DNA of 64,000 nucleotides, from the NCBI RefSeq assembly GCF_031127815.1, contig NZ_JARXHY010000006.1, positions 62,001 to 126,000 on the forward strand. The letters run 5' to 3'. The notes under the pieces were generated by a model. The model did no database searches. It saw nothing but the letters and a program-made list of their open reading frames with translations, and was not told the DNA's origin. Shown here piece after piece: positions 8,665 to 58,705 of this stretch (within the stretch, counting starts at the first letter, position 1; every line of letters starts with the position of its first letter). Position numbers and translations under genes: made by a program. Source of the stretch: Pelagicoccus sp. SDUM812003 (GTDB lineage Bacteria; Verrucomicrobiota; Verrucomicrobiia; Opitutales; Opitutaceae).

Positions 8665-9561
8665 CTAGAGGTTTTTTACGGTGACGCTCCCGCCGGAGGT
8701 GCGCATGGAGAGCAGAGGCCCGCCTCCATTGATGGACGCGTCGATCTTGTTTCGATCGAATTCGCCGCGCAGGTCGCCGTCGAAATCGAAGCGCACTCTG
8801 CCGCCGGCCGCCTTGGCTTTCAGGTCAAAGACCGAGCCGGAAGGGAGGCTGGCGCGGATGCTGCCGCCGTTGGTTTTCAGTTCGGTGCGTCCGCTGATGC
8901 CTTCGAAGAGCTCGGCAGTGATGTTGCCGCCGTTGGTGTGGGCTTCGATCTCAGAGGAGTAGGCGGCGATGCGGATATTGCCGCCGTTGGTGTGAATCCG
9001 AGCTGGCGCCCGCAGATCGGAGACCTCGATGTTTCCTCCGTTGGTGTGAGCGTCGAGCGGTCCGAGGATGCGATCCAGCTCGATGTTTCCCCCGTTGGTC
9101 TTCAATTCGCACTCGCCCGCTAGGTGATGGGCTCGGATGTTTCCTCCATTGGTTTTGGATTCGATCTCGATGCCATAGGGAAGCTCGATTTGGGCATCGA
9201 AGGAAACGCCGCGATTGCCGGAAAAGAGTCCGCCTAGGAAGCGGTCGTCATCATCGAGTTTGATGGTGATTACCAGTTTGTCCCCGCGCCGCTCGATCTC
9301 CCGCTTGACTTCGCGTTCCAGCTTGTCGGCTTCTGACTGGGAATTCGTTTTGAAGATCTGGTCGAGATCCAGGTGGAGATCCTCGCGTTCGGCGCCAACG
9401 AGCTGGATGTTTCCGGAGTTGAGGTGGATTTCGACTTTGTCGATCCCGCTCAAGGAAATGGTTTCCTGATGGTTGCGTACGATTTTGGCGGATGCCAGAG
9501 CCGTCGTACCGAGGGCGAGGAGGGTGATGCAGGCGAGTTGGGAAAAGCGCGGTAGTCTCAT
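8665..9561 (-). CDS. DUF4097-type exported beta-solenoid protein with TNGG repeats
   Basis: The 298-residue product has a signal peptide ending near residue 24 (A-L-A-S-A). The rest fits the DUF4097 putative adhesin family, a right-handed beta-helix. From about residue 135 the motif T-N-G-G-[NS]-I recurs six times at 14-22-residue spacing, one per predicted coil, and the C terminus closes with S-I-N-G-G-G and T-S-G-G-S-V turns. A charged helical stretch (about 70-95) precedes the solenoid. The gene has its own terminator and a promoter-like motif identical in spacing to those before the ECF sigma operon and the ADOP permease, so I infer control by that sigma factor. A second DUF4097 protein with a different repeat lies in that operon. 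Molecular function is unknown. Confidence 0.85.
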   Translation of the reverse strand: MRLPRFSQLACITLLALGTTALASAKIVRNHQETISLSGIDKVEIHLNSGNIQLVGAEREDLHLDLDQIFKTNSQSEADKLEREVKREIERRGDKLVITIKLDDDDRFLGGLFSGNRGVSFDAQIELPYGIEIESKTNGGNIRAHHLAGECELKTNGGNIELDRILGPLDAHTNGGNIEVSDLRAPARIHTNGGNIRIAAYSSEIEAHTNGGNITAELFEGISGRTELKTNGGSIRASLPSGSVFDLKAKAAGGRVRFDFDGDLRGEFDRNKIDASINGGGPLLSMRTSGGSVTVKNL

Positions 9562-9590
9562 GGCGGTCGGTTTGTTGTAGGTTCGTCATG

Positions 9591-9619
9591 GAATACTCGC
9601 GGCGAGTCCTTCGGTTACG
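9591..9619 (-). promoter_or_regulatory. Candidate ECF-sigma promoter of the DUF4097 gene
   Basis: On the minus strand CGTAAC (9619-9614), exactly 17 nt, then GTATTC (9596-9591), 29 nt before the start codon. The same two boxes with the same spacing occur before the ADOP permease (51869) and the ECF sigma gene (54344). Inference from recurrence; no transcript evidence. Confidence 0.55.
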
Positions 9620-28925: not shown

Positions 28926-31900
28926 CTAGAGCGCTTCGTCGCTCGAGACTTTGAGTCCAAGGAAGCGAGCGCTTGCGGAAGCGGGCATGCTCAGGGTGGC
29001 TTCGTGAAGAATGAGCGATTCCGTTTGGCCAAGCGTTCGGGTGTTGATGAGCGAACTGTGCCAGGTGGCGCCATCCTCGGTCCATTCGGGGCCGACCTCG
29101 ACATTGGCGAGCCCGGAGTAGGTGGCGTAGCGCAGGGTGATCACCTTGTCCTGATAGCTCCAGCCCAGGACGAAGTCCCCCGCTTCCGATCGGTGGTCCA
29201 GTCCGAGGGCGAAGTGCTCGAGATTTGAGAATCCATCTCCGTCGGGATCCGCGAGCATGGCGCGGTCCGCTTCGTTTTCAGGGTATTTTTCCTCGGCCCA
29301 GGAGGAGAAGGTCCGACCGAAGCGGGCGGTGAGGGCCAAGTCGCGACCGACTGTGGCGGTGAGGGCTTGCGATTTCTCTTTTCCGTAGCCTTCCCAGCCG
29401 AGGAATATCCATCCGTCGGCCGGCGCTGCGGTGAGGTTCAGGGTTTGGCCGAAGTCGAAGGTACTGGAATCGGGCAGACCGTCCACTGCTCCTTCGCCCA
29501 CGATGTTGAGACTGACCTTGTAAACGCGCGGGGTGAATAGCGGGGCAAGGCGAGTGTCTTCATCTAGCGTCAGCAGGTAGAACGCGTCGCCGTAGGGCTT
29601 GTCTCCTGCCCAACCGCGGAACTCGTATCCAAAATCCGGTTGCGCCTTGAGACGCAGTTTGTCCTTCCATGCGAACTCCTGCCCGTCTCTCGCTCCGATG
29701 ACCTGCCCGTTCGGGCTAGGGTCGATGGCAAGATCGCGGCCGGGGACGGTGATCTGCGAAGTCTCCGAAGCGACATAGAAGTCGTTCGACGTGTTGCCAT
29801 CTTCGGCGACGATGCCATCGGGGAAGCGGGCGCTGAGGTAGTATTGGCTTGGGCTGATGCCTTCAGGAACTGTGGTTTCGATGGTGAAGGCGCGCGCTTC
29901 GGACGGGGCGAGCTGGGAGAAGGGGATGGTGGCGCTGCCACCGAAGCCGTCGCTCTCGTTGCGCAAGGTCCAGCTTCCGACGGTCTTGGCGAAGGTGTAG
30001 TTGATTTTTGAATCCTTGGCCAGCTGCAGGGTGTCTTGACCGTTGTTCTGAAGGGTTATGCGAAAGCTAATCCGGTCGCCCACGCCGTAGTCGACGTTGG
30101 ATACGACGAGGTCGCGGATGCTTAGGTCTCGGCTGACTGGTTCGATGAAGGTCAAGTTGTCGGTGTAGAAAACGACGTGATCTTCGAAGGTCGCGACCTT
30201 GGCGGGATAGGGGATGATTTGCTCCCACTCAAGTCCGTCGGAGGAGGTCCATACGCTCTCGCCAGCGAGGTAGAACGCGTCGTTGGTAGCCGCTAGGGTG
30301 AGGTAGCCGGTGATCGGCAGCGATTGGCTTTGCCAGGATTCGCCGTCGCTGGACAAGCGTATGCTGGAAGTCCCATCGTAGGAGCCGACGAGGGCCCCGA
30401 GTCGAGTGTCGGTCGCGGCAAGTTGAACGCTCCCGCTGGCCTGCAACACTTGGGAGGAGCGAGTGAAGTCGTTTGAAAGCCGGATGACGGACTCGCCCCA
30501 GTGGGAATAGATGCTCCCCTTGAAGGAAACCGGCTTGTCGAAGAGGCGTTGGTCGTCCTGAGGATCGATGCGTTCCCATTTCAAGCCGTCTTTCGATCGG
30601 GCATAGGCGGTATGGTCGACCCGATTGATCTCGTAGTCGATGAGCAGCCAGAAGTAGTCGCCATCGCTATACAGCTCCTCGATGTCGAAGTAGACGTTTG
30701 TCAGCCATTCTGGATACGCAACTTTTGTCCAGTTGACTCCATCGACGCTTCGATGCAGACCGAAATGCCAATCGCCGAGGTAGACCCCGCTGGCGAAGAC
30801 GGTGTTTTCCTCCACACGGGTCTTGGTGCGCTGCCATTGGCCGCCCGAATTCCTAAAGTAGGATTGGTAGTCGGTCACGGCGATCACGGGGTCGATGCCG
30901 ATGATCGCGATGTTCTCGCGAAACCCGAAGGAGTCGAACGTCTGGCTGTACAGGCTGCCATCGACACCAACAAAGGAATAGGTCGAGCCGTCGTTCGCGG
31001 TGAATGCCAAGCCGGAAGGCGAGGCGACGAAGGGACCGATGCGAAACGCGTAGCCCTCGAAGGGAATGGGTTCGCCGAGCTGCTCCCAGTCGATGGCGTC
31101 TCGGGAGCGAAGGACGACCATGAACGGGTTGTCTCCTGAACGGGTGGTGAAGGTGTAGTAGTAGCCGTCGGAGTAGCTGATCTGTTGCCCGTAGAAGGAG
31201 TCTTCCATAGCGAACCACGTTTCGCCGTCCGCGGTGTAGTGGTAGCCTGATGACGTTTCCAAAAAGAGAAGGTCTCCGACTTTTCGCAGGTCGTAAGCGG
31301 ATTCCTCTGGAAAGAGCGCGCTCCAGACTTCCAGATTTCGGCTGGTGGAGACCTCGTAGTAGCCCAGGCCGACATAGGTATCGCCGACTTGGTAGACCTT
31401 TGAGAAGTTTTCCAGTCGGGTCCAGCTTCGGCCGAGGCCGCCGACGAAGCTTTGATCGAAAGCGTTGAAAACTAGATCTCGTGAATCCGGTTCTACGGAA
31501 ATGGTTTCTTCACCTGCTGGAAACCAGTTGATGCCGTCGCGTGAGAGCATGGGAGCCCAACTCAGTCCGGCGATGAAGAGACCATTCTCGCACACCACAC
31601 CGTCCGAATCGAAGTTCCCGGTTTGTATCCAATGTATCCCGTCATGACTAAAGAGAGCTCCTTTTCCCTGGTAGCCAGCTACGAAACCGGACGGATTGGC
31701 AGCGATGCTGGTGAGCGGCTCCATGCTGGGAGTCTGCAAGGTTTTCCAGTCGATCCCGTTGGTGGAGAGGTGTACCCGACCGCCGTCGCTCACGCCGTAG
31801 TAGGCGCCATGATGGAAGATGAGATCGTTGAGCGAAAACTCGTCGCTGGGCTTTTTCACCGTGAGCAGCGGCGGCACTTCGAGGGCGATGCTGTCGGCGG

Positions 31901-34900
31901 CTCGGTTGCCATCCTTGGTGTAGGTGACGACCTCGACGAGATACTGTCCAGCGGTCTCTGGAGTGAAGCGGAAAGCGCGACGGTTCGCCGGCAGCGTTTC
32001 CCAAAGCTCTCCATTGATGAGCAACTCAGTGCGGTCGATGCTCTCGATCGGCGCGGATGCCAAAAAGCGCAGGTCAAGCGGAGCTCCGAGCTGGCTTCTC
32101 ATGGTGCTGGGATGGCTGACGAAGCTCGTTTCGCTGAGATTGGAACGGTGATGGCCTAGAATGGCGATGCCGCGTTCGGAACTGGTGACGATGGCCTGCC
32201 CCGACTCGGCGGCATTGGAGAGAATCGAGCCGTGATTGTTCACCAAGGTCGGGCTTGCCGCGATCTGCTTCCAGGAGTCGCCATCCGAAGATGTGAAGTA
32301 GTAGTCATCCCAATACAGAGCGAGGAACTCGCCATCGATGAAATGGACCTTGTAGACGAAGTCGCTGGAATGGTTGGGCAAGGAGAGGTTGGCCTTGCGT
32401 TGCCAGCTTTTCCCGTCGCTCGATGTGTAGCACTTGTTTTGGGCGAAGGCGAGAAAGGTGTCGTTTCCGAAAACCATGGAGGAGAACCGTGCCCCCTCGG
32501 GCAGGGATTGCTCGGTCCACTGAATGCCGTCCTCCGAAGTGTAGAGGTCGTCCTCCGAATAGGCGACGAAGACGCCCTTGCCGTAGACGAGGTGGGTCGC
32601 GTTGATGCCGGAAACGCTGTTCCATGTCTTTGCGTCGGTGGAGTGCTTGATGCCATCCGGCCAGCTGATGGCGACGAAGCGGTTCTCTTCGAAAACGATG
32701 CTCTCGAGATTGACGCTGTGTTTGCTGAGGCTCGATAGGGTGCTTCCGACGTGGTTTTCGCTGAGGTAGACGCCGTTTCCGTAGACGAAGCGCCCGTAGC
32801 CATGGTCATAGGTGTTCGACGCTTCTCGAGTCCAATTCGCTCCGTCGCCGGAGCTGTAGAGCCACCGGCCGGAGGAGGCGATGAAGCGGTCGTTGGCGTA
32901 GCTGATGGTGGCGTTCGAGTACCAAGACTGGGCTTGGTTGTCAAAGTGCAGCGATGTCAGCTCGTCTAGCGGCGTCACGCCTTTGTTGGTAGAGATGATT
33001 CCTTCGCCGTCCTTGAAGGTCAGAGGCGGCGTCCATGGAGATTCTTCGGTGTATAGGAACTTTCGATACTCGTAGCTCTCGCCGTCTACACGGTAAACTT
33101 CCAGTCGGTAGCGTGGAGGGTGGAGTCCTTCGTTATCCAGCGTTTCCAGAAGGAGGTAGACTTGATCTTGGTCCTCGTCGATGACCACATCATCGAGCCT
33201 GTCCTGGCTGAAGGGAAAGGTGGTCCAGTTTCGGGCGTCTTTCGAGACCCAGAGCGTCTCGACGTCTGCGTATCCATAAAGCCACCACCGTCCGTCGCCG
33301 TATTGAGCGATGGTTAGTTGGCCGGTCGGCCCGGAATGCGATGACCACGTGATGCCATCCGGGGAGGAGTAGATGGCGCTGAAGCGAGCGGCGACGAAGA
33401 GTCCATTTCCAAAAGCGATGGTCTCTCCCCATTGGCCCGTAAGTTCAAGGGTTTTGGTCCAGGAGGAGGCGTCGGTGGAGTGGTAGATGCCGTCTGCGGC
33501 GCGAATCGTGTAGTTGCCGGCACCATACGCGATGGAGTAAAGCGACTTTTCGAACTCCTTTTTCTTCGTCCAGTGGAGCAGGTTGGGAGAGGTGTAAACC
33601 GCCTTGTCGGAGATGAGGGTGTAGAAGTCGCCGTTCCAGGTGATGTCCCTGCTCTCAATGTCCACGGTTTGCCAGACGCGTCCATCCAGGGAAAAGGAAA
33701 AGGGCCCCGAGCGAGTGGTGACGAAGTAGTTCCCAATCGTTTTCAAACCGTGGGTGGAGACGCTCGAAGACGAAGGCCCCGTCCACGCGTAGGCGTAGAA
33801 TTCGTCGCGATCCGAGACGACGAGGTAGGCTGGCTCTGAAAGAACGCTGGCGGCCCCTTTGGTCGCTCGTAGTTGGTAGAATCCGCTGTCGGCGGATTTG
33901 GCGTTTTGCAGCGATAGGGTCAGATCGTTGGCACCGGGAATCGCTTCTCCATCCTTCAGCCATTGCAGGTCTGGTGTACCGGAGCCCGGATTGAGCAAGG
34001 CGGATAGGGTGACGCTCTGTCCTTGTTTTATGGATGCAGGCGCGGGGTTGCGTATGAACTGGAAAGTTCCGGCGAAGAGGCTCAGCACGGCCGAGCGACT
34101 GCGCAAGGTCTGGTTAGGAAAGCGGAGCTCCACGGAATAGCTGCCGAGGTCCTCTTTCGTGATCGCTGGGATCTCCACGTTGGCGCGGGTGGCGCCTTGT
34201 ATCGCTGCGCCGTCCTTGAACCATTGATAGCTTGGCACGCCGTCTCCCACGGCCACTACCGAGAAGGAAGCCCGGTCTCCCAGTTCCACGGACTGATCCT
34301 TCGGATGCACCAGGATGCGGGGCGCCCCGATGTAGCTGCCCTCCAAATGGAAATCCGAGCCGAGGGCCGACAGGGAGTCCACGGCGATCGCGTAGGTGAC
34401 GCCTGCGCTGGCCTGAAACACGAGGTTCGACTGGCTGCCTGACTCGAAAGAGGCCTCGAGCGGGGAAAGGGTCGCTAGCGCCTCTCCGGTGAAAACGCGG
34501 GTGAACAGTCGACTCGAGGTTTGGGCGATCTTGAGGTAGACGCTTCCGGACTGGGGAGCTTTCCAGCGGTACCAGACGCTCGCTCCAGTGGCGGACGGGT
34601 GTAGAGGCGTTTCGCCTTGTTCGAGACTCGCTGCCGTATTGCGTCCTGATACCGTGAATACGCTTCCTTCGAGAATCGTAGCGTTATCGAAGGCGTCGTT
34701 TGGCGGAGCGATCACCAGCTCAAGAGAGAAGGGGCCGAGGCGCTCGTTCACGCTGTCGATTTGTAGGAAGTACGTCTGGTGGGCGAGGATTTCCCAGTTG
34801 AGGACAATCGGACCGTTGCTTTCTGTCGATGATGACGTATCCACAAGCTGGATATTTGAAAGGGAACTTCCCTGAAAGATGGAGAGAGCTCCAGCGAAAC

Positions 34901-36710
34901 CGGTTGGGCTCAGCTTGATTTGGGCCACGCCTGACAGGTGGGGCGTCCATATGTACCACACCGTAGCGCCTTGGGCGTTGGGGGCGGGGAGCGGTTCGCC
35001 GGATTCCCGAGTTGCTAGGCTCAGGGATCCGCTGCGCCGGCCGCCAAGGCTCGAGAGCTCCTCCGCCTGGGCGAAGGTATCGTTCACAGGCGCGTTGGAC
35101 GCTCCGGTGACGGCGCGATGCACGTTGAGTCGACCGGAGCTGAGGCAAACGCGCGACAGATCGGTTCGCAGCTCGACCGAGTTGAGCAAGCGGGCCAGGT
35201 TTCCCTCGGCAGAGTTTTTCGGGAACTTCGCCTTGATCAGGGCTAGGGAGCCCGCCACCAGAGGGGCGGCCATCGAAGTGCCCTCCAGTTCGGCGTAAGC
35301 GTCATCGGCGGTATGGAAGGCGCTGATCGCTCGGGCCGGTGCGGCGATATGGGCGAGGCGGGGACTGTAGTTGGAGTAGAAGGACAAGGTGTCGTAGTTT
35401 TCGGTTGCGACGACGGTGACCTGATTCGGGATTTGGTAGGCGGCGGGGTAGGTCGGCGTCTCGTCGAGGTCGAGGGATTCGTTGCCGGCGGCGGAAACGA
35501 TGAGCGTTCCGGCGTCCGAGGCTCGGGTAAGGGTTTCGTACAAAGCCTCGCTGTTTTCCGATCCTCCCCAGCTGTTGTTTATGATATCGGCGCCATTCGT
35601 AATGGCGTAATCGATACATTTTATGGCATCGGAGATCGTGCCGTATCCCGTTTCGTCGAGGAACTTCAGCGGCATCAGCTGGGCGTCCCAGGTGACTCCC
35701 GCGATGCCTTTGCTGTTGTTGCCCCGCGCTGCGGCGATGCCGGCGACATGCGTTCCATGGCCGTTGTCGTCGTTCGGATCGCCGTTGTGTTCGATCGCGT
35801 TGAAACCGAAGAGGTCGTCGATGATGCCGTTGCCATCGTCGTCGAGCCCGTTGGCCAGTTCGCCCTCGTTTCGCCACAGGTTGTCCTTCAGGTCTTCGTG
35901 GGTGGCTCGAATTCCGGTGTCGATGATGGCGATGACCACCTCCGGCGAGGCGTTGATGGTGTCCCACGCTTGCGGGGCGTCGATGTCGCGGTTGGCGCTG
36001 CCGGCGCCGAGCGGGTTGGAAAGGTTGTACTGCAGAGGGAAGCGCGGATCGTTCGGCTCGAAGGCCGAGCGTCGGAGGAGCTGATCCGCCTCCACGTAGC
36101 GCACGATTTCGGGAAGGGCGCCCAAGCTTGCCATGCGCTGCGGAAGCGCGGCGAGGTTTTCGGTTTCCGGGAAATGAAATCGAAACAGATCGCTATTGCG
36201 GGAAAGCGGCTCCGCGGCGGCTCCAAGAGCATCGGCGACTCGCTCGATTTCGGAGAGGCGGCTATTGGCGGTGGCGGCCACGATGAATTCGTTGGCTATG
36301 CTCAGGCTTTCTTTGACCAGTTCGCCTTCGTGAATATGCCCTTGGCCGTAGTAGGTTCTATCGAGGCGGAGCAGCGGGCGGTGGAAGCGGGTCCGAGCGA
36401 TGGTGGTTTCGACGCGGTAGGGTCCGGAGTCGACCGAGCTCTGATGGACGATCTGCTCGGAGATCGATTGGAACCAGGCGAACCGTCTCGCCGGGCTGGC
36501 GGAGAGTCCCAGATCGGGAGGGCTCGTTTCGACGGTAGTCGAAGCGTCGCCGGCAATCGGAGCGAGGGCTTTAGTCGGGGAAATGGACTGATCGATCGCT
36601 GCCGAGTGGCTTTTTTCGCCAATGTTGAGCAGAGAAAGAACGAGGACAGCAGCGGAAGAGATGGCGAACGCGAGCGCCAGGGCGCGTTTGCTCGAAAAAA
36701 GCTTATTCAT
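28926..36710 (-). CDS. Giant secreted subtilisin-like (S8) multidomain protease
   Basis: A 2594-residue protein. An N-terminal hydrophobic segment (about 10-30) is followed by a prodomain-like region (about 80-215) and an S8 catalytic domain (about 228-540) with Asp264 (I-I-D-T-G-I), His318 (N-G-H-G-T-H-V-A-G), oxyanion Asn410 and Ser479 (E-G-T-S-M-A-A-P). Two PPC-like domains (about 545-800, V-W-Y-[IR]-W), two Ig-like domains (about 805-985) and about 20 sialidase/BNR-type units with the core S-x-D-G-x-x-W (about 1000-2260) follow. Next are a CARDB-like domain (about 2270-2395), two InlB-type repeats with G-W motifs and a calcium-loop C-terminal module (D-P-D-G-D-G-F-S-N-L-E-H-F near 2500). 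It probably acts on the cell surface or in the medium; the substrate is unknown. Confidence 0.9.
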   Translation of the reverse strand: MNKLFSSKRALALAFAISSAAVLVLSLLNIGEKSHSAAIDQSISPTKALAPIAGDASTTVETSPPDLGLSASPARRFAWFQSISEQIVHQSSVDSGPYRVETTIARTRFHRPLLRLDRTYYGQGHIHEGELVKESLSIANEFIVAATANSRLSEIERVADALGAAAEPLSRNSDLFRFHFPETENLAALPQRMASLGALPEIVRYVEADQLLRRSAFEPNDPRFPLQYNLSNPLGAGSANRDIDAPQAWDTINASPEVVIAIIDTGIRATHEDLKDNLWRNEGELANGLDDDGNGIIDDLFGFNAIEHNGDPNDDNGHGTHVAGIAAARGNNSKGIAGVTWDAQLMPLKFLDETGYGTISDAIKCIDYAITNGADIINNSWGGSENSEALYETLTRASDAGTLIVSAAGNESLDLDETPTYPAAYQIPNQVTVVATENYDTLSFYSNYSPRLAHIAAPARAISAFHTADDAYAELEGTSMAAPLVAGSLALIKAKFPKNSAEGNLARLLNSVELRTDLSRVCLSSGRLNVHRAVTGASNAPVNDTFAQAEELSSLGGRRSGSLSLATRESGEPLPAPNAQGATVWYIWTPHLSGVAQIKLSPTGFAGALSIFQGSSLSNIQLVDTSSSTESNGPIVLNWEILAHQTYFLQIDSVNERLGPFSLELVIAPPNDAFDNATILEGSVFTVSGRNTAASLEQGETPLHPSATGASVWYRWKAPQSGSVYLKIAQTSSRLFTRVFTGEALATLSPLEASFESGSQSNLVFQASAGVTYAIAVDSLSALGSDFHLEGSYIGAPRILVHPKDQSVELGDRASFSVVAVGDGVPSYQWFKDGAAIQGATRANVEIPAITKEDLGSYSVELRFPNQTLRSRSAVLSLFAGTFQFIRNPAPASIKQGQSVTLSALLNPGSGTPDLQWLKDGEAIPGANDLTLSLQNAKSADSGFYQLRATKGAASVLSEPAYLVVSDRDEFYAYAWTGPSSSSVSTHGLKTIGNYFVTTRSGPFSFSLDGRVWQTVDIESRDITWNGDFYTLISDKAVYTSPNLLHWTKKKEFEKSLYSIAYGAGNYTIRAADGIYHSTDASSWTKTLELTGQWGETIAFGNGLFVAARFSAIYSSPDGITWSSHSGPTGQLTIAQYGDGRWWLYGYADVETLWVSKDARNWTTFPFSQDRLDDVVIDEDQDQVYLLLETLDNEGLHPPRYRLEVYRVDGESYEYRKFLYTEESPWTPPLTFKDGEGIISTNKGVTPLDELTSLHFDNQAQSWYSNATISYANDRFIASSGRWLYSSGDGANWTREASNTYDHGYGRFVYGNGVYLSENHVGSTLSSLSKHSVNLESIVFEENRFVAISWPDGIKHSTDAKTWNSVSGINATHLVYGKGVFVAYSEDDLYTSEDGIQWTEQSLPEGARFSSMVFGNDTFLAFAQNKCYTSSDGKSWQRKANLSLPNHSSDFVYKVHFIDGEFLALYWDDYYFTSSDGDSWKQIAASPTLVNNHGSILSNAAESGQAIVTSSERGIAILGHHRSNLSETSFVSHPSTMRSQLGAPLDLRFLASAPIESIDRTELLINGELWETLPANRRAFRFTPETAGQYLVEVVTYTKDGNRAADSIALEVPPLLTVKKPSDEFSLNDLIFHHGAYYGVSDGGRVHLSTNGIDWKTLQTPSMEPLTSIAANPSGFVAGYQGKGALFSHDGIHWIQTGNFDSDGVVCENGLFIAGLSWAPMLSRDGINWFPAGEETISVEPDSRDLVFNAFDQSFVGGLGRSWTRLENFSKVYQVGDTYVGLGYYEVSTSRNLEVWSALFPEESAYDLRKVGDLLFLETSSGYHYTADGETWFAMEDSFYGQQISYSDGYYYTFTTRSGDNPFMVVLRSRDAIDWEQLGEPIPFEGYAFRIGPFVASPSGLAFTANDGSTYSFVGVDGSLYSQTFDSFGFRENIAIIGIDPVIAVTDYQSYFRNSGGQWQRTKTRVEENTVFASGVYLGDWHFGLHRSVDGVNWTKVAYPEWLTNVYFDIEELYSDGDYFWLLIDYEINRVDHTAYARSKDGLKWERIDPQDDQRLFDKPVSFKGSIYSHWGESVIRLSNDFTRSSQVLQASGSVQLAATDTRLGALVGSYDGTSSIRLSSDGESWQSQSLPITGYLTLAATNDAFYLAGESVWTSSDGLEWEQIIPYPAKVATFEDHVVFYTDNLTFIEPVSRDLSIRDLVVSNVDYGVGDRISFRITLQNNGQDTLQLAKDSKINYTFAKTVGSWTLRNESDGFGGSATIPFSQLAPSEARAFTIETTVPEGISPSQYYLSARFPDGIVAEDGNTSNDFYVASETSQITVPGRDLAIDPSPNGQVIGARDGQEFAWKDKLRLKAQPDFGYEFRGWAGDKPYGDAFYLLTLDEDTRLAPLFTPRVYKVSLNIVGEGAVDGLPDSSTFDFGQTLNLTAAPADGWIFLGWEGYGKEKSQALTATVGRDLALTARFGRTFSSWAEEKYPENEADRAMLADPDGDGFSNLEHFALGLDHRSEAGDFVLGWSYQDKVITLRYATYSGLANVEVGPEWTEDGATWHSSLINTRTLGQTESLILHEATLSMPASASARFLGLKVSSDEAL

Positions 36711-38382: not shown

Positions 38383-41300
38383 TCAGTATTGGTAGGTCCC
38401 GAGTCGAAAGAAGCTTTGTCGAGAGCCAGATTTTTGGGGATCCAGTTCGATGTCTCCATTCCAGTCGGACCAGTTGATCAGGTCGGTGGAGAAAAGGATC
38501 GGTAGCGGACCTTCGACCTCGATCGACGGGGTCAGGCGAAGCTTTCCTTGGTGGTGTTCGAGCGAGAGCCATGCTCCGGAGCTGGGGTCCGCGGGATCGG
38601 TCCCAAGGTGGTATTCGGTGATGTTGGAAAGGCCGTCCTGGTCGAAGTCGTTGGAAAACGGATCCGTCATTTGCTCGATTTCCGCATTCTCGATGGTCTC
38701 GGCCAGCCAGCTCGTGAAGCTATCGTAGGGTTTGATGGTGACCGTCATGGTGTCGGTGGAGCGGTTTCCGAAATGGTCCTCGACGGTCAGCTTCGCGATG
38801 TATTCGCCCTCTCGCAGATAGGGAGTGATCTGGGCGCTCTGGTACTGGCGGCCTCTGATTTCCCAGGTCCATTTCTTGATCGCCCAGTCGTCGCTGGAAT
38901 TCAGACCGTTGAGGAAGGGATATGCCATTGCGTAGCTGTCTCTGAAGAGCACGATATCTTGGCCCGCGTCGGCTATCGGACTTTGGGGGCCGAAGAAGGT
39001 CGGATTGGGGGAGAGCGGGTTCCATGCCTCTTGGTAGTGGTAGTAGGGGGTGCCGGTATTCAGCTCCTGTCCGCTCAACAGGAGCTGTCCGTTGTTCAGC
39101 AGGACGAGTGTGCGCAGGGGCGTCACGGTGAAGTCTGCGACTTCTCCGCGCAGAAGAGCTTGGGGAGAAGTGAGCTGGGCGTCGGAACCGATTTCGCCCA
39201 GGCCGAGGCTGCCGTTGGAGTCCTGTCCGAGCGCCCACAGGCTGCCGTCCTTTTCGAGCCAGAGGGTTTTGCTCGAGGCGACCTTGGCCTGTCGAACCGC
39301 TGCGTCCGTGAGACGCACCAGTTGGTCGCTGCGCGCCAGGTCTCGGTGGAGCCCAAGGGCGGCGCCGTGATTGTTTCCCAATCCCCACAATGATCCGTCC
39401 AGTTTCGTGATCAGGAGACGTCGGTCGAAGTAGTCGATATCCGCGGCGCCGGAGGAGAGGATGCGAATCGGGGCGTTGGGAGGATTCGCTTGCTCGTCGA
39501 CATCGCCTTCTTCGCCCGGGCGCAGGTTTGCTCTGCCCCAGGCCCAGACCGATCCGTCCGTTTTCAGAATCACCGTTTCCTGCCAGCTGGCGCGAACCTT
39601 GGCCACGCCGGATTCGATGACTTTGGTCCAAGCGACGAGCCTTTCGGCGGACTCGTGGCCCAAGTTCTGATACTGGTTGTCGCCGCAGGCCCAGAGGGAA
39701 CCGTCTTTTAGAACCGCGAACAAGCAGGCGTCGCCGACGGTGAAATCCACTGCGCCCGACTCGATGACTTTGGTGAACGGGGTGAGCTTGCTGGAGAAAC
39801 CCGTCCCGAGCTCGCCCTCCTGGTTTGTTCCGGAAACCCAGATCGCTCCAGCGGCGTCGATGGCCATGGTCCGGCCGAACCGTCCCGAGATGCGTTCGAT
39901 GTCGCTCAGGGGGAGTCGGAGGAAAGTCCTGTCGTTGGCGAGAGTGAATCCAATGTTCGACCGATCGACTCGGCCTCCCGTATAGACGTCGCCGTTTTCC
40001 AGCAGAAAGTAGAGGGTTTGGTCGTTTGAATCGAGTGCTCGCAGAGCTGACTTTCGCTGCACGGTGACGCTAGTCTGGCTGGTGTGCGTCAGGCCCTCCG
40101 TGTCCTCCACTTCGAGCGTGACCTCGGTTTTGCCCAAGGGGAAGCGAGCGGAAATGACCTTGCCGACCTCGGTCTGGTCGTTCCAGCTCCACCGCCAGGT
40201 CTTGATGAACTTGTCGTCGGTGGATTGGCTGCCGTCGAGGATGGCTTCGGCGCCGTCGCGTCCAAGAAAGTCCTCCAGCGTCTGAGGCGGTCCGGCCTGG
40301 GCGACGGGAGCCGAGTTCGTCGTGGGGTTGGGAGCCTCCGCCAGGAGTATGGGAATGCCGCTTGGGGCTGCGTCGAACGGGGGATCGCGGTACGGGGAGC
40401 TACTCGTCGTCTTAGCCCATACCGAGCCATCCTCCAAAAGGAAGAGCGTGTAGCTGCCGTCTTGACTGACTTTCAGCGCACCCGAAGGAAAGTGGCTGAT
40501 CGGCGCCAGCACGGGCTGGAGACTTGCGTAGTAGGAATAGTCCGGCGGTTCGTAGGCGTAGCATTTTCCATCTTTGTCTACCATCGCCAGTCGGTTTTCT
40601 GAGGCGGAGAGCGAACGGGGTGAGGGGCCGCTGAGCAGGACCCGGTTCCCTCCCGAGCCGAAGATGTAGGAGCCGAATTCGAGCTCCTCCCATCGATTCG
40701 CTTTTACCCCGATGCTGCCATCCACCGACTCGTAGAAAAACGAGTTTTGGTCCATGGAAAGCAGCCGTTTGACGAAAGGGCCGTCCCAAGCCGAGAACGT
40801 GTATGCGTAGCGCTCGTCGTCGTAGCTTGTTTCCAGCAGTTCGCCCGTTTCTAGCAGGAGGTAAGTCTTGCTATCGGACGTGGCGATATCGGATACCTGC
40901 GATGGGTGGATCGGGATCAAACTGCCTTCAGGCAAGTTCGAGGTGGGGCCGAGTTGGCCGCTGCCATTCCTGCCCATGCCGAGCGCTGAGCCATCGTCCA
41001 TGAGAATCAAGCTGTGGTAGTCTCCGGTGGCGATTTTCTTGGCTCCGGAGGAAACGATTGGGACGAAGCCTTTGCTAAACTGCGCGGCTCCGAGCCCGAG
41101 CTGTCCGTAGCCGTTCGATCCCGCGCCCCAGACGGAACCGTCGTCTTTCAGCACCAAGCAATGGCTGACTCCAGCGGAGACTTGAGCGACCCCTTGGTTG
41201 AAGAGAGGCAGGAGGACGTCCTCGGTGTCCTGGATGAAACTTCTGCCGAAAAGGCCGTAGGTGTTGTAGCCCTGGGCCCAGAGTGAACCATCCTCCTTGA

Positions 41301-43755
41301 TGACGAACATGCGGCCGTCGAAGGTATAGACATCCACCGCTTTGCTGTGGGGAGCGACCACCACGTCGATGGTTTGCGAATCGCTGCGTCCTTCTCCGTC
41401 GGACACGGTCAGAGTGACCGCGTTGGATCCCTGCGGGAGGTCGATCAGTACGCGGGGCTCCTCGCTGGTCCCTCCCTGCCAGCTCCATGCGTAGCTCGTT
41501 ACTTTCCAGTCGTCCGTGGATCGCAACCCGTGGAGCGTGACCGAAGCGATGCCGTCCCTTCCTCGTGCCACGTTATCCGATTCGTGAACTGCGATCGCGG
41601 TGGGGGCGAGATTGGTGAAGGCGTCGTCGCGGGTGCTGGCGGTGATCTGCTCCAAGGGCTGCCTGGTGTGGCTGTTCGAACCGTTTCCGAACTGGCCGTT
41701 GCGATTGTCGCCCCCGGCCCAGACCGATCCGTCGACCAGCAGGGCTACGGTGAAATCCCCATCTGAGGTGATACGCTCGACGCGGCCGGGGATGAGGCTG
41801 ATCAGCTTTCCTTCGGTGGAGATGTTGCCCTTGTAGAGGCTGACGAGATTGGAACCGGTTCCCAGGACCTCGCCCGTCTTCAGCACCACGTAGGTCCCGG
41901 AAGACATCGCTTGAACGGAGCGCACGCCGGAGTCGACGATCTTGTGGAGCCCTGGCACGGCGTCGTTTTGTTGCCCCAGTCCGAGCCTGCCCGAGTTGCC
42001 GTTGCGCCCGGCTGTCCAAGCGCTTCCGTCCGCCATGGTGAATGCCAGGTGGAAGTAGCTCGCCGAAAGGTCGGTCACGCCAGAGTCCACAACTTTTCGA
42101 AAGCGCTGGTGCTCTTCCTCGTCCAGCTCCGGCGAAATGTATTTCGAGAGCTCGCCGCTGATCCAGAGACCGCCGTTCTTGTCCAGAAGAGCGGAGAAGC
42201 CGTTCCCGGCCACGGCCTTGACGGCGCCTGCATCGAAAACCACTTGCAGAGAGGCGGGGTCGTCGCTTTTTGCGAAGCCCAGTTGCCCTCTGGAGTTCCC
42301 GCCGCAGCCCCAAACCTTGCCGTCTTTGGTGACCAGGAGGATGTGGTTCCAGCTGCTGGCGATGGAAACCGCGTCGGCTGCGAGGATTTTGGTGAAGGTG
42401 TCGACCTGGGTCTGGCCTTCGACACCGAGTTGCTGATTTTCATTGCTGCCGATGCCGAACACCGCCCCCTGGGACGTGCGGAAAAGGGTGTGTCCGTAGG
42501 CATCGACGATCTCGACCACATCGTCGAGGGCGATCTTCTGGAAGTCGAGCGACGGGTAAGAGGAGGTGGGAAGACCGAACTGCTTGTTCAGGTCGGATCC
42601 CGCGGCGAGCACGGTCCCGTTTTCCTTGAGGAGGTAGAGCCGATTGGGGCCGGACACGATGTCGGCGACTTCCGAATAGGCGCTGATGGAAAAGGAAATG
42701 GTATCCGTATCCGTCATCCCACTATCGTTGGTGACGGTGAGGGTGACAGTGGTGGCGCCGACGGGCAGCCTCGCCTCCGCCGTCTCGCCGCTCGCCGAAC
42801 CGCCGTTCCAGCTCCAGCGCCAGGAGCTGGGGCGTAGCCATCCCGAGCTGAGCGAGCCGTCGAGGCTCACCGTATGAAAACCGTCATCGTCGCTGTCCTC
42901 GAAATGGGTGCGGGTTTGATTGGTCGCCACGGCGACCGGATGCGTCGGTTTGTAGGAGCGGTAGGCGACGACCTGGCTGGAGATGTTGCGAATGGTGCGG
43001 GCGTTGTCGGCATTCACCTTGCCGGTGGCGGCGCCTCTGTACTCCTTGTTTGGATTCGAGAAGACGTTGATTTGGGCTCCCGGGGCGTAGGCCATCACGG
43101 TGCGCTTGGTCTGGCCTCTCGCGTCGAAGCGGTAGCCGTAGGAGTAGGGGTAGATGCCCCCCTTTTCCGTATTGTCCGGATCGTGTGCCGCTCCGAGGTT
43201 GTGTCCAATCTCATGCTGCAGCACGAGGTCGCTGAGGGCGTATTCGGCGGTGACGATGCCGAAACCCGCGCTTGGGGATCCTGAGGTGTCGTCTAGGATC
43301 CAAGCTATGCCGATGGAGTCCACGCCGTAGGTGTCTCCACGAAACAGATACACGAGGTCGGCGCCCGTTTCGTTGCGCCATTCGTGTACCGCGTCCATGA
43401 CTCCATCGTTCGGCTTGGTCAAGTGCTCGATGTCGACGCCCATGTCCTGCCCATCCTCCCAATAGTCCACCTGCTTGATGCCCACCAGACGGAGCTGGGT
43501 GTTGGTATCGCTACCGGCGAAGGCTTCGTTCGAGCTGACGATGCAGGACCGGGCCAGGGCTTCCACGCCGTCGGCCCCTCCGTAGTCGTTGCTGACTCGC
43601 TCGGTATAGACGATCAGCACGTCGATGGTGCGGGTGGCCGTGGCCGCAGGCAGGGCGGCCACGCTCCCTGGGATGAGCAGCCAGAGCAGCCAGATTCGGA
43701 CGACGCTCGCCCAAGTCCGTCCATGTGGGCGTGTTGCGCGGCTGCTAGCGATCAT
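38383..43755 (-). CDS. Secreted metzincin metalloprotease with PKD and RCC1 propellers
   Basis: About 1790 residues from the ATG at 43755; an ATG 69 bp earlier is possible but has no good signal. The signal peptide is about 20-37. A metzincin catalytic domain follows (about 43-245) with the zinc motif H-E-I-G-H-N-L-G-A-A-H-D (His181, His185, His191, catalytic Glu182) and Met-turn T-V-M-A-Y (Met221). Four PKD-like domains ending in V-T-L-T-V-type strands alternate with three RCC1-like propellers (units with G-S-N-x-x-x-Q-L-G), and a calcium-loop C-terminal module closes it (D-F-D-Q-D-G-L-S-N-I-T-E-Y). There is no prodomain; the upstream overlapping gene encodes a candidate one. Secreted proteolysis is well supported; the targets are unknown. 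Confidence 0.88.
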   Translation of the reverse strand: MIASSRATRPHGRTWASVVRIWLLWLLIPGSVAALPAATATRTIDVLIVYTERVSNDYGGADGVEALARSCIVSSNEAFAGSDTNTQLRLVGIKQVDYWEDGQDMGVDIEHLTKPNDGVMDAVHEWRNETGADLVYLFRGDTYGVDSIGIAWILDDTSGSPSAGFGIVTAEYALSDLVLQHEIGHNLGAAHDPDNTEKGGIYPYSYGYRFDARGQTKRTVMAYAPGAQINVFSNPNKEYRGAATGKVNADNARTIRNISSQVVAYRSYKPTHPVAVATNQTRTHFEDSDDDGFHTVSLDGSLSSGWLRPSSWRWSWNGGSASGETAEARLPVGATTVTLTVTNDSGMTDTDTISFSISAYSEVADIVSGPNRLYLLKENGTVLAAGSDLNKQFGLPTSSYPSLDFQKIALDDVVEIVDAYGHTLFRTSQGAVFGIGSNENQQLGVEGQTQVDTFTKILAADAVSIASSWNHILLVTKDGKVWGCGGNSRGQLGFAKSDDPASLQVVFDAGAVKAVAGNGFSALLDKNGGLWISGELSKYISPELDEEEHQRFRKVVDSGVTDLSASYFHLAFTMADGSAWTAGRNGNSGRLGLGQQNDAVPGLHKIVDSGVRSVQAMSSGTYVVLKTGEVLGTGSNLVSLYKGNISTEGKLISLIPGRVERITSDGDFTVALLVDGSVWAGGDNRNGQFGNGSNSHTRQPLEQITASTRDDAFTNLAPTAIAVHESDNVARGRDGIASVTLHGLRSTDDWKVTSYAWSWQGGTSEEPRVLIDLPQGSNAVTLTVSDGEGRSDSQTIDVVVAPHSKAVDVYTFDGRMFVIKEDGSLWAQGYNTYGLFGRSFIQDTEDVLLPLFNQGVAQVSAGVSHCLVLKDDGSVWGAGSNGYGQLGLGAAQFSKGFVPIVSSGAKKIATGDYHSLILMDDGSALGMGRNGSGQLGPTSNLPEGSLIPIHPSQVSDIATSDSKTYLLLETGELLETSYDDERYAYTFSAWDGPFVKRLLSMDQNSFFYESVDGSIGVKANRWEELEFGSYIFGSGGNRVLLSGPSPRSLSASENRLAMVDKDGKCYAYEPPDYSYYASLQPVLAPISHFPSGALKVSQDGSYTLFLLEDGSVWAKTTSSSPYRDPPFDAAPSGIPILLAEAPNPTTNSAPVAQAGPPQTLEDFLGRDGAEAILDGSQSTDDKFIKTWRWSWNDQTEVGKVISARFPLGKTEVTLEVEDTEGLTHTSQTSVTVQRKSALRALDSNDQTLYFLLENGDVYTGGRVDRSNIGFTLANDRTFLRLPLSDIERISGRFGRTMAIDAAGAIWVSGTNQEGELGTGFSSKLTPFTKVIESGAVDFTVGDACLFAVLKDGSLWACGDNQYQNLGHESAERLVAWTKVIESGVAKVRASWQETVILKTDGSVWAWGRANLRPGEEGDVDEQANPPNAPIRILSSGAADIDYFDRRLLITKLDGSLWGLGNNHGAALGLHRDLARSDQLVRLTDAAVRQAKVASSKTLWLEKDGSLWALGQDSNGSLGLGEIGSDAQLTSPQALLRGEVADFTVTPLRTLVLLNNGQLLLSGQELNTGTPYYHYQEAWNPLSPNPTFFGPQSPIADAGQDIVLFRDSYAMAYPFLNGLNSSDDWAIKKWTWEIRGRQYQSAQITPYLREGEYIAKLTVEDHFGNRSTDTMTVTIKPYDSFTSWLAETIENAEIEQMTDPFSNDFDQDGLSNITEYHLGTDPADPSSGAWLSLEHHQGKLRLTPSIEVEGPLPILFSTDLINWSDWNGDIELDPQKSGSRQSFFRLGTYQY

Positions 43756-44368
43756 GGGCGCAAGCGGCGCAGGGTTTGAGCTGTTGCAGGTCCACCTTTT
43801 CGAACAGCTGTCTGCCGGAGGCATGGTTTCGGATTTCCCACGAGATCCCTTGCTCAGGCAGACGGATAACGCCTGCGACGCTATCGCGAACGTAGCTGAG
43901 AATGGCTTGGGATGAATCGCTACCGATAACGGCGCCCGAGAAGGTGCCTTTCTCTGGGCCTGATGATTCGATCAAGCGCAGTCGCAAGGCGTGGCGGGAT
44001 CCGTCGGGAAGGGTGGTCGAGAGGGTGAAAGAGGTCTGCGCGTCCCATTTCGAGGGGGCGGGATCGATCGAGACCAGCCATTTGCCCAGCTGGTGCGGGT
44101 GTCGCGGGTCCACCTCCAAGCGCTCAGGGTCGAGGCTGAGGGCTAGGTCTGTCTCGTAGCTGGTCGAAGGCTCGCTCCGAGCAGCCTCGACAACCGACGG
44201 TTGGGGGCGTTCCTGCGTCGCTTCGGCCGGGACCGCTTCCGCCGTTTCCGGAGGACTGGGCGCGGTCATTTCCCTCTGAGCCATGGTCCCGTCCGGCCAA
44301 TTGGCCAGTACCAAGAGGAGGGCCATCAGAGCCGAAAACAGAGCGAGGTATTTGGTGCGGGGTTTCAC
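43745..44368 (-). CDS. Exported propeptide-like protein coupled to the metzincin
   Basis: A 207-residue protein from a GTG start with a membrane-targeting N terminus (about 7-23 hydrophobic), a Pro/Glu/Ala-rich linker (about 30-70) and a beta-rich domain (about 75-195). The G-[ST]-x-I-G-S-D, S-V-A-G-V-I-R-L-P and S-W-E-I-R-N strand pattern is typical of propeptides that precede reprolysin-like domains in bacterial proteases. It ends in P-C-A-A-C-A-H-D-R, whose cysteines (200, 203) could act as a cysteine switch on the zinc. The stop overlaps the protease start by 11 bp in another frame. I infer an inhibitory or folding prodomain supplied as a separate polypeptide; a frameshifted single gene is the alternative. 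Confidence 0.6.
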   Translation of the reverse strand: MKPRTKYLALFSALMALLLVLANWPDGTMAQREMTAPSPPETAEAVPAEATQERPQPSVVEAARSEPSTSYETDLALSLDPERLEVDPRHPHQLGKWLVSIDPAPSKWDAQTSFTLSTTLPDGSRHALRLRLIESSGPEKGTFSGAVIGSDSSQAILSYVRDSVAGVIRLPEQGISWEIRNHASGRQLFEKVDLQQLKPCAACAHDR

Positions 44369-51868: not shown

Positions 51869-51897
51869 TGTAACGCGTTTCGGCGAGTGCGGTATTG
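51869..51897 (+). promoter_or_regulatory. Candidate ECF-sigma promoter of the ADOP gene
   Basis: TGTAAC (51869-51874), exactly 17 nt, then GTATTG (51892-51897). The start codon at 51909 is only 11 nt further, implying a very short or absent leader. Matches the motifs before the ECF sigma gene and the DUF4097 gene at 9561. Confidence 0.5.
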
Positions 51898-54343: not shown

Positions 54344-54372
54344 CGTAACGCTCCGTAGCGCTGTCAGTATCC
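54344..54372 (+). promoter_or_regulatory. Candidate autoregulatory ECF-sigma promoter
   Basis: CGTAAC (54344-54349), exactly 17 nt, then GTATCC (54367-54372), 26 nt before the sigma start codon. Same boxes and spacing as at 51869 and, on the minus strand, 9619-9591. Autoregulation is the usual behaviour of ECF sigma operons. Confidence 0.55.
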
Positions 54373-54398: not shown

Positions 54399-54971
54399 GT
54401 GACGAGCGATGACGACAACGAGCTGATGGGAAGGGCCCGAAAGGGGGATCTGGATGGGATCGGAATCCTTTTCGAGCGCTATCACGGATCGCTGGTGGGC
54501 TTTTTTCGACGAGTCGATGGGCGGGGGAAAATCGGGGAGGATCTGGCCCAGGAAACCTTTTGGCGGATCGTGCGTTATCGCAAATCGTTTGATGGTCGCC
54601 GCCCCTTTCGGGCTTGGATGTTTCAGATCGCGAGGAATGTGATGAACGACCATTTGAGAAAGAGCATGCGGGCGGGCAAGGTGATGGATCCGCGGGTCGA
54701 GCTGAACGAAGAGCTAGCGGCTCAGCCTGATAGCGATGTGAGCGCCGAAGTGGAACGCGGCGAGCGGAAGGAGCTTTTGCGCGAAGCGCTTTCGCGACTG
54801 CCGTTGGAGAAGCGGGAGCTGATCGTGCTCTGTCGTTTCGAGGAGCTGCCCTATGCGGAGATCGCTCCGATGTTCGGTTGTTCGGTGGGGGCTTTGAAGG
54901 TTCGCCTGTTTCGGGCCCTGAAGGAGCTGAAGGAGGTTTTCATACAACTGGGAGGAGAAAAGACAGCATGA
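54399..54971 (+). CDS. ECF RNA polymerase sigma factor
   Basis: A 190-residue extracytoplasmic-function sigma factor starting at a GTG behind AAAAAGGG. Region 2 spans about 10-85, with the -10-recognition segment D-L-A-Q-E-T-F-W-R-I and R-P-F-R-A-W-M-F-Q-I-A-R-N. Region 4 spans about 125-180 (L-P-L-E-K-R-E-L-I-V-L, then Y-A-E-I-A-P-M-F-G-C-S-V-G-A-L-K-V-R-L-F-R-A). The stop overlaps the next gene as ATGA, typical of sigma/anti-sigma pairs. The motif [TC]GTAAC-N17-GTAT upstream of this gene, of ADOP and of the distal DUF4097 gene is its likely target sequence. Confidence 0.94.
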   Translation: MTSDDDNELMGRARKGDLDGIGILFERYHGSLVGFFRRVDGRGKIGEDLAQETFWRIVRYRKSFDGRRPFRAWMFQIARNVMNDHLRKSMRAGKVMDPRVELNEELAAQPDSDVSAEVERGERKELLREALSRLPLEKRELIVLCRFEELPYAEIAPMFGCSVGALKVRLFRALKELKEVFIQLGGEKTA

Positions 54972-56594: not shown

Positions 56595-57350
56595 CTAGAA
56601 ACTCATCAGCTCCTTGAAGCGGCTTGCTTGGCGACGGGAGACTTCGATTTCCTCCCCGGCGCTCAGGGTGATCTTGAGGCCCCCGGAAAACCAGGGTTCG
56701 ACCGACTTGATCGCCTTCAGGTTGATGATCTGCTGGCGGTTCGCTCTGAAGAAGCTGCTCGGGTCGAGACGGGATTCCAGGTAGTTGAGCGTTTTGGGGA
56801 TCATGGGGCTGCGCGAGTCGAAATGGATTTTCGAATAGCTGCCTTCGACTTCCATTAGCCGAATATCCGCCAGCCGAACGAACCAGCAGTTGTCGCCGTC
56901 CTTCACGAACACTTGGGCGTTCAGGTCCATGCGATTTTTGGGAACCGTTTCCGAGCTGCCGTCGGGGCGGCTCGAAAGCGTGTCGGATCCTTTGCGCTTG
57001 CGCAGCGAGGTGGAAGCCTTCTCGATCGCGGCGCCCAGGCGGTCGATCTGGATCGGCTTTTGCAGGTAGTCCAGAGCGTTGTAGTCGAAGGCCTTGAGGG
57101 CGTACTGGTCGTAGGCGGTGGTGAAGATGACCTCCGGCGTCTGGTCGAGTTGCTCGAGCAGCTCGAATCCATCCTTGCCAGGCATCTGGATATCGAGAAA
57201 GAGCAGATCCGGTTCGCTGCTTTCGATCAGAGCCAGCGCCTCGTCCGCGTCGGCGGCTTCGCCGATCAGCTCGATTTCGGGAAAGCCTTTGAGCAAGTGC
57301 TTGAGTTCTTGGCGGGCGAGGCGGGAGTCTTCGACGATAAGGGAGCGCAT
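56595..57350 (-). CDS. LytTR-family response regulator
   Basis: A 251-residue regulator. The receiver domain (about 1-118) has the acidic pair near Glu7/Asp8, the phosphoacceptor Asp53 in L-F-L-D-I-Q-M-P-G and Lys at Y-L-Q-K-P. A linker (about 115-145) and a LytTR DNA-binding domain (about 147-251) follow, with V-E-G-S-Y-S-K-I-H and F-F-R-A-N-R-Q-Q-I-I-N. The LytS-type kinase gene lies 91 bp upstream on the same strand, so they form a two-component system. Targets are unknown; LytTR regulators bind paired direct repeats, none of which I could establish here. Confidence 0.95.
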   Translation of the reverse strand: MRSLIVEDSRLARQELKHLLKGFPEIELIGEAADADEALALIESSEPDLLFLDIQMPGKDGFELLEQLDQTPEVIFTTAYDQYALKAFDYNALDYLQKPIQIDRLGAAIEKASTSLRKRKGSDTLSSRPDGSSETVPKNRMDLNAQVFVKDGDNCWFVRLADIRLMEVEGSYSKIHFDSRSPMIPKTLNYLESRLDPSSFFRANRQQIINLKAIKSVEPWFSGGLKITLSAGEEIEVSRRQASRFKELMSF

Positions 57351-57441
57351 GGAGAACTAAGGGGGCTGCAGGGTGAGGTATGGAGGATGGAAGCAGGATG
57401 ATCGGAGCTAGGGAGCGAGCGACTCTATCGGCGGGGAGACG

Positions 57442-58512: not shown

Positions 58513-58534
58513 GGGAAGGGCGGGCGTCGTTGGG

Positions 58535-58705
58535 CTAGAGGCAATTGCTGGAGCTTCTAGAATTGCGAAAGCTGCCGATGGCAAGCAAGAGCCAAACGAT
58601 GAGCGGCGGAACGAAGCCCTCCAGCGACTTTCCCAGCAAGGATGCGACGGGCATGAGGATCGCGAGGGTAGCGAGGGAGGCGACGAGCGTTCGGATGTTT
58701 TTCAT
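58535..58705 (-). CDS. Small two-helix membrane protein upstream of the kinase
   Basis: A 56-residue product with two hydrophobic segments (about 6-24 and 29-44) separated by a short G-K-S-L-E-G turn and a basic, serine-rich tail. It begins at the ATG at 58705 and ends 22 bp before the kinase start on the same strand. I do not recognise the family. It could be co-transcribed with, and feed into, the LytS-type kinase. No strong ribosome-binding site is visible, so coding is likely rather than certain. Confidence 0.5.
   Translation of the reverse strand: MKNIRTLVASLATLAILMPVASLLGKSLEGFVPPLIVWLLLAIGSFRNSRSSSNCL

Follow-up and report, generated by a model that had tools for sequence, protein, structure and literature searches.

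A putative ECF sigma factor promoter shared by a distal DUF4097 gene, a sigma factor operon encoding a HEAT-repeat membrane protein, and ADOP-type permease genes

The closest described systems are class I (ASDI) anti-sigma systems, toast-rack systems and MacB-type transporters. In class I systems such as RpoE/RseA and SigW/RsiW (PMC7406223), the sigma factor gene is directly followed by the gene of a membrane protein and is read from an autoregulatory promoter, and the optional Hx3Cx2C zinc motif is missing from roughly every second membrane-bound anti-sigma factor of the class. Toast-rack (DUF4097) proteins are tied to membrane stress regulation in the LiaFSR and PSP-partner systems (LiaG), and PMC11237479 describes Toastrack genes in operonic linkage to a sigma factor gene, in other cases in the company of an ABC ATPase and a permease, and also the occurrence of LytTR in Toastrack contexts. 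MacAB and darobactin-export ABC transporters and the ADOP orphan permeases are recognized by TIGR03434, MacB_PCD and FtsX matches.

The locus described here lies in a window of 64 kb (the whole stretch of DNA that was analysed, G000:C6:62001-126000) from a genome of 5.75 Mb. Like the class I systems, it has a putative autoregulatory promoter before the sigma factor gene and a membrane protein gene directly after it, and the zinc motif occurs in most relatives examined, although it has been lost in the window protein. It differs from those systems in that a HEAT-repeat solenoid lies beyond the transmembrane helix and the third gene encodes a DUF4097 protein that begins with a signal-peptide-like segment. 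Compared to LiaFSR, control would be exerted by an ECF sigma factor and a HEAT anti-sigma factor rather than by a two-component system. The permease genes give the same TIGR03434, MacB_PCD and FtsX matches as the MacAB, darobactin-export and ADOP proteins, but here stand under a promoter common to DUF4097 and ECF sigma factor genes. A literature search covering titles and the starts of abstracts found no description of the circuit; the main ECF classification fell outside its scope, and this sigma factor may therefore belong to a group that has been numbered before. Toast-rack proteins and ADOP permeases are both poorly understood, and a conserved promoter that connects both to a single sigma factor and its HEAT-type anti-sigma factor would make them parts of a testable circuit. 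We consider it likely (probability about 0.8) that the motif is the promoter recognized by this ECF sigma factor, which would drive its own operon, the distal DUF4097 gene and ADOP/MacB-type permease genes. The shared promoter, its conservation, the gene cassette and the domain make-up of its products can be read directly from the DNA, and the features of the window are listed in Table 1.

Table 1. Positions of the genes and putative promoters within the 64-kb window.
Feature	Position	Strand	Characteristics
Distal DUF4097 protein, 298 aa	8665..9561	-	PF13349; signal-peptide-like start; TNGG rungs
ECF-type promoter, distal DUF4097 gene	9591..9619	-	-35 CGTAAC (9614-9619), N17, -10 GTATTC (9591-9596)
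ECF-type promoter before ADOP permease gene	51869..51897	+	TGTAAC-N17-GTATTG
ADOP-family duplicated permease, 800 aa	51909..54311	+	MacB_PCD and FtsX domains; TIGR03434
ECF-type promoter before sigma gene, putatively autoregulatory	54344..54372	+	CGTAAC-N17-GTATCC; conserved at orthologues
ECF sigma factor, 190 aa, GTG start	54399..54971	+	Sigma70_r2, Sigma70_r4_2, TIGR02937
Probable membrane anti-sigma factor, 258 aa	54968..55744	+	Short N-terminal domain, one TM helix, HEAT repeats; zinc ligands lost
Operon DUF4097 protein, 253 aa	55758..56519	+	PF13349; signal-peptide-like start (by eye); VDGD-type rungs

An earlier note on this DNA had placed CGTAAC-N17-GTATTC on the minus strand 29 nt before a DUF4097 gene and 42 kb from the sigma operon, and both statements hold: the motif runs from 9619 to 9591 (-), the end of its -10 box lies 29 nt ahead of the ATG at 9561, and the sigma promoter is found at 54344-54372. 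It is the single match in the window at spacers of 15-19, and the exact form is expected only 0.01 times in the window (100 dinucleotide shuffles). The site scores 19.4 with a matrix built from 38 relatives' sigma promoters with a score above 8, none of them from the window. Many ECF -35 boxes are of the GTAAC kind. The short motif GTAAC-N16/17/18-GTAT is not by itself enriched genome-wide, since 19 sites were found compared to 20 for the reversed control pattern; an N17 spacer occurs in nine of the 19, three of which are the three window sites. A large regulon in the source genome is unsupported, the short motif being no commoner than its reversed control, and among the other sites only an ADOP gene (contig C9, spacer 18) and an HlyD-type gene (contig C17) look like plausible further members. 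The site before a ribosomal-protein gene was judged accidental. On C17 the GTAAC-N17-GTAT site stands ahead of the HlyD-type fusion protein gene, which is followed by an apparent RND pump gene (by eye).

Conservation at orthologous genes, on which the earlier note had staked its proposal, was found both before the sigma genes and before distal DUF4097 genes. The family sample consisted of 100 genomes, of which 43 (the source genome included) matched the sigma factor at approximately 110 bits or above by our count, and 40 sigma loci were taken, one per genome. GTAAC-N17-GT was present within 300 nt upstream of 36 of the 40 orthologous sigma genes and of none on the antisense strand (0/40). The four loci without it were L077, L080, L083 and L088; two of these (L080 and L083, from genomes G012 and G057) have GGCAAC-N17-AGTATT before the sigma gene instead, a possible specificity switch.

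Upstream regions of 90 DUF4097 genes outside the sigma operon were then scored; these are most, not all, of those listed, with operon copies, some tandem copies and the matches in G052, G068 and G026 left out. A score of at least 10 was reached by 46 of the 66 distal regions from sigma-bearing genomes compared to 2/66 on the antisense strand, and 33 of the 66 beat each of 200 dinucleotide shuffles. For genomes counted as sigma-less the corresponding figures were 8/24 compared to 1/24 antisense, with 6/24 beating each shuffle. When a start codon within 60 nt was required, 45 of the 66 regions remained, representing 36 of the 41 sigma-bearing genomes (the window's own included); any start codon was counted, so the distances are lower bounds. 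The other five genomes (G027, G095, G054, G010, G014) had no examined distal DUF4097 gene with the motif. A chance match, for which the parity between the short motif and its reversed control genome-wide would speak, is extremely improbable: the exact form is hardly expected in the window at all, and the explanation was rejected on the conservation of a like motif at relatives' genes, mostly close to a start codon, together with the antisense controls.

A second alternative is that a different ECF sigma factor, whose -35/-10 preference is similar, reads the promoter of the distal DUF4097 gene, the likeness of the sites reflecting overlapping specificities. Other ECF factors are at hand, with 17 matches to the sigma query in the source genome. 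The same-genus genomes G019 (L161) and G089 (L100) keep GTAAC-N17-GTATAC before a DUF4097 gene. In both, a close orthologue of the sigma factor is missing (best E 5e-18 and 3e-17, respectively), and no anti-sigma match was obtained. Against another sigma factor, distal DUF4097 genes carry the motif more often where this sigma factor is present (the 46/66 compared to 8/24 regions above), only the window sigma factor's site among the 19 of the source genome precedes an ECF gene (by eye), and a motif-bearing sigma factor was not seen in G019 or G089, where none of their 18 pattern sites lies before an ECF gene (by eye). Taken together this explanation appears quite improbable for the window. In G019 and G089 either another ECF factor reads the site or the sigma factor has been lost or replaced. 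High-scoring sites were also found in G096 and G059, again without a close sigma orthologue, and in G096, counted as sigma-less, the motif additionally stands ahead of a MacB-type ATPase gene. Because these four genomes carry the motif without a close orthologue, the claim that it belongs to this sigma factor alone is limited. Of the earlier proposal that two DUF4097 members are tied to one sigma factor, the shared and conserved promoter stands, and an exclusive tie is not supported.

Returning to the proposed recognition by the window sigma factor, this protein has the domain content of an ECF factor: PF04542 and PF08281 both exceed their cut-offs, region 3 is not among the listed matches, and TIGR02937 (sigma70-ECF) scores 99.8 bits compared to a cut-off of 42.9. 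A plasmid search with the sigma query (five of 2418 records looked at) gave only matches below 60% identity. The sigma gene is followed by that of the middle protein, whose start overlaps the sigma stop, and then by the operon DUF4097 gene. The middle protein has the placement and the membrane helix of a class I anti-sigma factor, with one hydrophobic segment near residue 101; the Hx3Cx2C motif is absent from it. This motif was present near the N-terminus in 21 of 25 relatives' middle proteins, a count made after a HEAT-motif filter that kept 25 of the 40 middle genes and dropped the other 15. In an alignment of 26 middle proteins zf-HC2 was matched by 20 and HEAT_2 (E up to 0.001) by 21; the window protein has 19-34% identity to its relatives and scores 25.9 bits for HEAT_2 (PF13646), just under the cut-off of 27.7. 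In its AlphaFold2 model (pLDDT 81.8, pTM 0.56) there are helices at the N-terminus, a single long helix (91-141) and a helical repeat modelled with confidence. Foldseek matches to this model were weak, with alphaRep and HEAT-like chains among others (best E 0.013, none below E 0.01). The earlier note had called this protein a membrane HEAT sensor; rather than being only a sensor it is best read, given the zinc motif in 21 of the 25 relatives, as an anti-sigma factor. By its layout the window protein is a probable membrane anti-sigma factor, with sigma binding and inhibition predicted.

An ADOP permease had been included in the proposed system, and its identity is secure, the window protein scoring 754.9 bits with TIGR03434 compared to a cut-off of 622.3. 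ADOP-type genes also stand under the motif in several relatives' genomes (G020, G034, G006 and G074). A scan with TGTAAC-N16/18-GTWTTC gave 49 sites in 33 genomes compared to 20 for the reversed control (our sum), and the stricter TGTAACYTT-N13/15-GTWNTC gave 44 sites in 40 genomes compared to 6. Genes downstream of these sites in relatives include sigma operons, DUF4097 genes and six ADOP permease genes (L181, L192, L209, L220, L242, L245; TIGR03434 at E 1e-132 or better), five of the six ending at a locus boundary and hence scoring below the TIGR03434 cut-off. HlyD-type fusion protein genes lie some distance downstream of the motif (L243, L254), and MacB-type ATPase genes lie at 28 nt (L241) and 209 nt (L203/L233) from it. 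In G096 the motif-associated ATPase comes closest to the DarD (darobactin-export), MacB and LolD models, below their cut-offs, and the permeases also match LolC/LolE-type models weakly. TonB_C proteins (L222, L234) and an AIM24 protein (L255) are encoded near the motif in relatives, and a protein of 66-91 aa with hydrophobic segments recurs under it (L197, L200, L210, L219, L221, L223, L244, L250). Pfam was run on L243, L241, L222, L234 and L255, and also on L219 and L244 from among the small proteins, for which it gave no match. The target list is a sketch and not a defined regulon, because some of the sites lie inside genes or face none. Among 23 ADOP upstream regions from two genomes (8 of the 20 matches in the window genome and 15 of the 48 in G074), seven scored at least 10 within 200 nt compared to one antisense, and this single antisense match is a site scoring alike in both directions. 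G074 also has a long ADOP run (C16:307712-351993, loci among L299-L323) that encloses two DUF4097 matches near its centre, of which the first has the motif; the DUF4097 gene at C16:331638 lies within this run.

A second DUF4097 protein had been ascribed to the sigma operon, and PF13349 recognizes it at 49.4 bits and the distal protein at 58.4 bits (cut-off 22.9). A PF13349 profile search of the whole genome returned these two genes only, both in this window. The LiaG equivalog model NF049997 gives a score far below its cut-off (63.7 bits compared to 285). The AlphaFold2 model of the distal protein is nearly all-beta (pLDDT 90.5), and the best Foldseek match was 4qrk at E 1e-11 with TM-scores of only 0.33/0.43, accompanied by other putative adhesins with TM-scores to the query of at most 0.5; a sequence search of solved structures with the same protein gave no match at E 0.1. 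PMC11237479 names 4qrk as a Toastrack structure. Rungs of the distal proteins are mostly TSGG (alignment of 26), with TNGG in the window protein. A hydrophobic, signal-peptide-like start was possible in all 29 selected distal genes (that of the window and 28 from relatives), a count favoured by the method, which preferred start codons giving a hydrophobic segment. An intracellular Toastrack domain is predicted in PMC11237479, whereas the signal-peptide-like starts of the DUF4097 proteins here argue for export.

Beyond the family the cassette was examined in loci of two other families of the order, seven of which were taken from the ten matches listed. Sigma, HEAT and DUF4097 genes were present in all seven (by eye; in one locus the DUF4097 gene is truncated at the boundary), and the highest-scoring motif stands before the sigma gene, up to approximately 300 nt away, with scores of 12.3-21.4 compared to 2.6-12.8 for the best antisense sites. 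GTGAC replaces GTAAC in two of the seven. A scan of named genomes, restricted to the best 80 of 352 loci, at least three of which (L329, L358, L368) come from family genomes already sampled, showed a sigma gene upstream in 77 of the 80 and a DUF4097 gene, often two, downstream in 77 of the 80. Within these best 80 loci a matrix score of at least 10 was found in 49/77 compared to 5/77 antisense, and GTAAC-N17-GT lay upstream in 53 of the 73 usable loci compared to one antisense, with CTTT following in 37 of those 53. By the phylum given in the title, GTAAC-N17-GT was found in 26/35 loci of Acidobacteria, 10/10 of Aminicenantes, 13/16 of Bacteroidetes, 2/3 of KSB1, 1/2 of Ignavibacteria, 1/4 of Verrucomicrobia, 0/1 of Gemmatimonadota and 0/2 of bacteria without a phylum name. 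Hx3Cx2C was present in the middle proteins of 47 of the 80 distant loci. The best match of the window HEAT protein among the named matches (best 80 of 352 loci) is in Puniceicoccaceae bacterium K14, and two others are in Opitutaceae MAGs. The core cassette is thus far wider than Opitutae, occurring in Acidobacteria, Aminicenantes, Bacteroidetes, Ignavibacteria, KSB1 and one Gemmatimonadota locus, mostly with the promoter, and this breadth of the three-gene cassette suggests a general device.

Pattern scans outside the order covered 12 and 23 genomes (34 different) and gave 12 and 10 sites compared to 12 and 2 reversed-control sites. Twelve of the 22 sites are the sigma gene's own, and the remaining ten compare to 14 control sites (our sums). 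Outside the order the response therefore looks local, since there is no surplus of sites away from sigma genes. Three of these ten sites, with permease or ATPase genes, are suggestive only: an ADOP gene stands under a site in an acidobacterial genome (L412), a Bacteroidetes genome has a MacB_PCD/FtsX permease gene in this position (L413), and in another acidobacterial locus (L427) a MacB-type ATPase with 73% identity to the G096 motif ATPase is encoded approximately 150 nt downstream of a site. The link of permeases to the motif outside the order is anecdotal.

From the arrangement of genes and promoters we infer the following course of events. At rest the HEAT-repeat anti-sigma factor would hold the sigma factor at the membrane, with its HEAT domain outside the cytoplasm. 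A disturbance read by the HEAT domain would free the sigma factor, which would then transcribe its own operon, the distal secreted DUF4097 gene and ADOP/MacB-type permease genes, and in some relatives also genes for small membrane proteins. Such a response would probably serve to repair the cell envelope or to drive efflux there. For the secreted toast-rack proteins a role as protector, scaffold or feedback ligand is conceivable, in the last case with feedback on the HEAT domain.

The promoter could also be real in a regulon that serves a housekeeping or developmental surface programme, such as envelope assembly or lipoprotein sorting, and not a stress response. This fits the weak LolC/LolE-type matches of the permeases and the two TonB_C proteins and the AIM24 protein near the motif in relatives, and it gains from the stress signal of the preferred reading being itself a prediction. 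Membrane anti-sigma control, however, is typical of stress circuits, and the G096 motif ATPase is nearest to darobactin-export and MacB models, if below their cut-offs. According to PMC11237479, DUF4097/LiaG proteins are partners of membrane-stress systems. On balance a housekeeping or developmental programme seems somewhat unlikely.

A further extension of the envelope-stress reading would span phyla: the HEAT-solenoid anti-sigma factor would sense, or be held by, the co-regulated secreted toast-rack proteins, so that the occupancy of the toast-rack proteins reports the state of the envelope and frees the sigma factor, which then raises MacB/ADOP-type export. We regard this as doubtful, having lowered its likelihood since outside the order the permeases are linked to the motif no more than the control would give. 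If true, it would give the orphan ADOP permeases their first physiological role and make DUF4097 a periplasmic signalling part.

The surroundings of the two DUF4097 genes in the window contain further reading frames. A LytTR response regulator gene and a His_kinase-type sensor gene (56595-58584, minus strand) adjoin the operon DUF4097 gene and are convergent to it. Between both DUF4097 genes lie two very long open frames on the minus strand, of 2594 aa (28926-36710) and 1813 aa (38383-43824).
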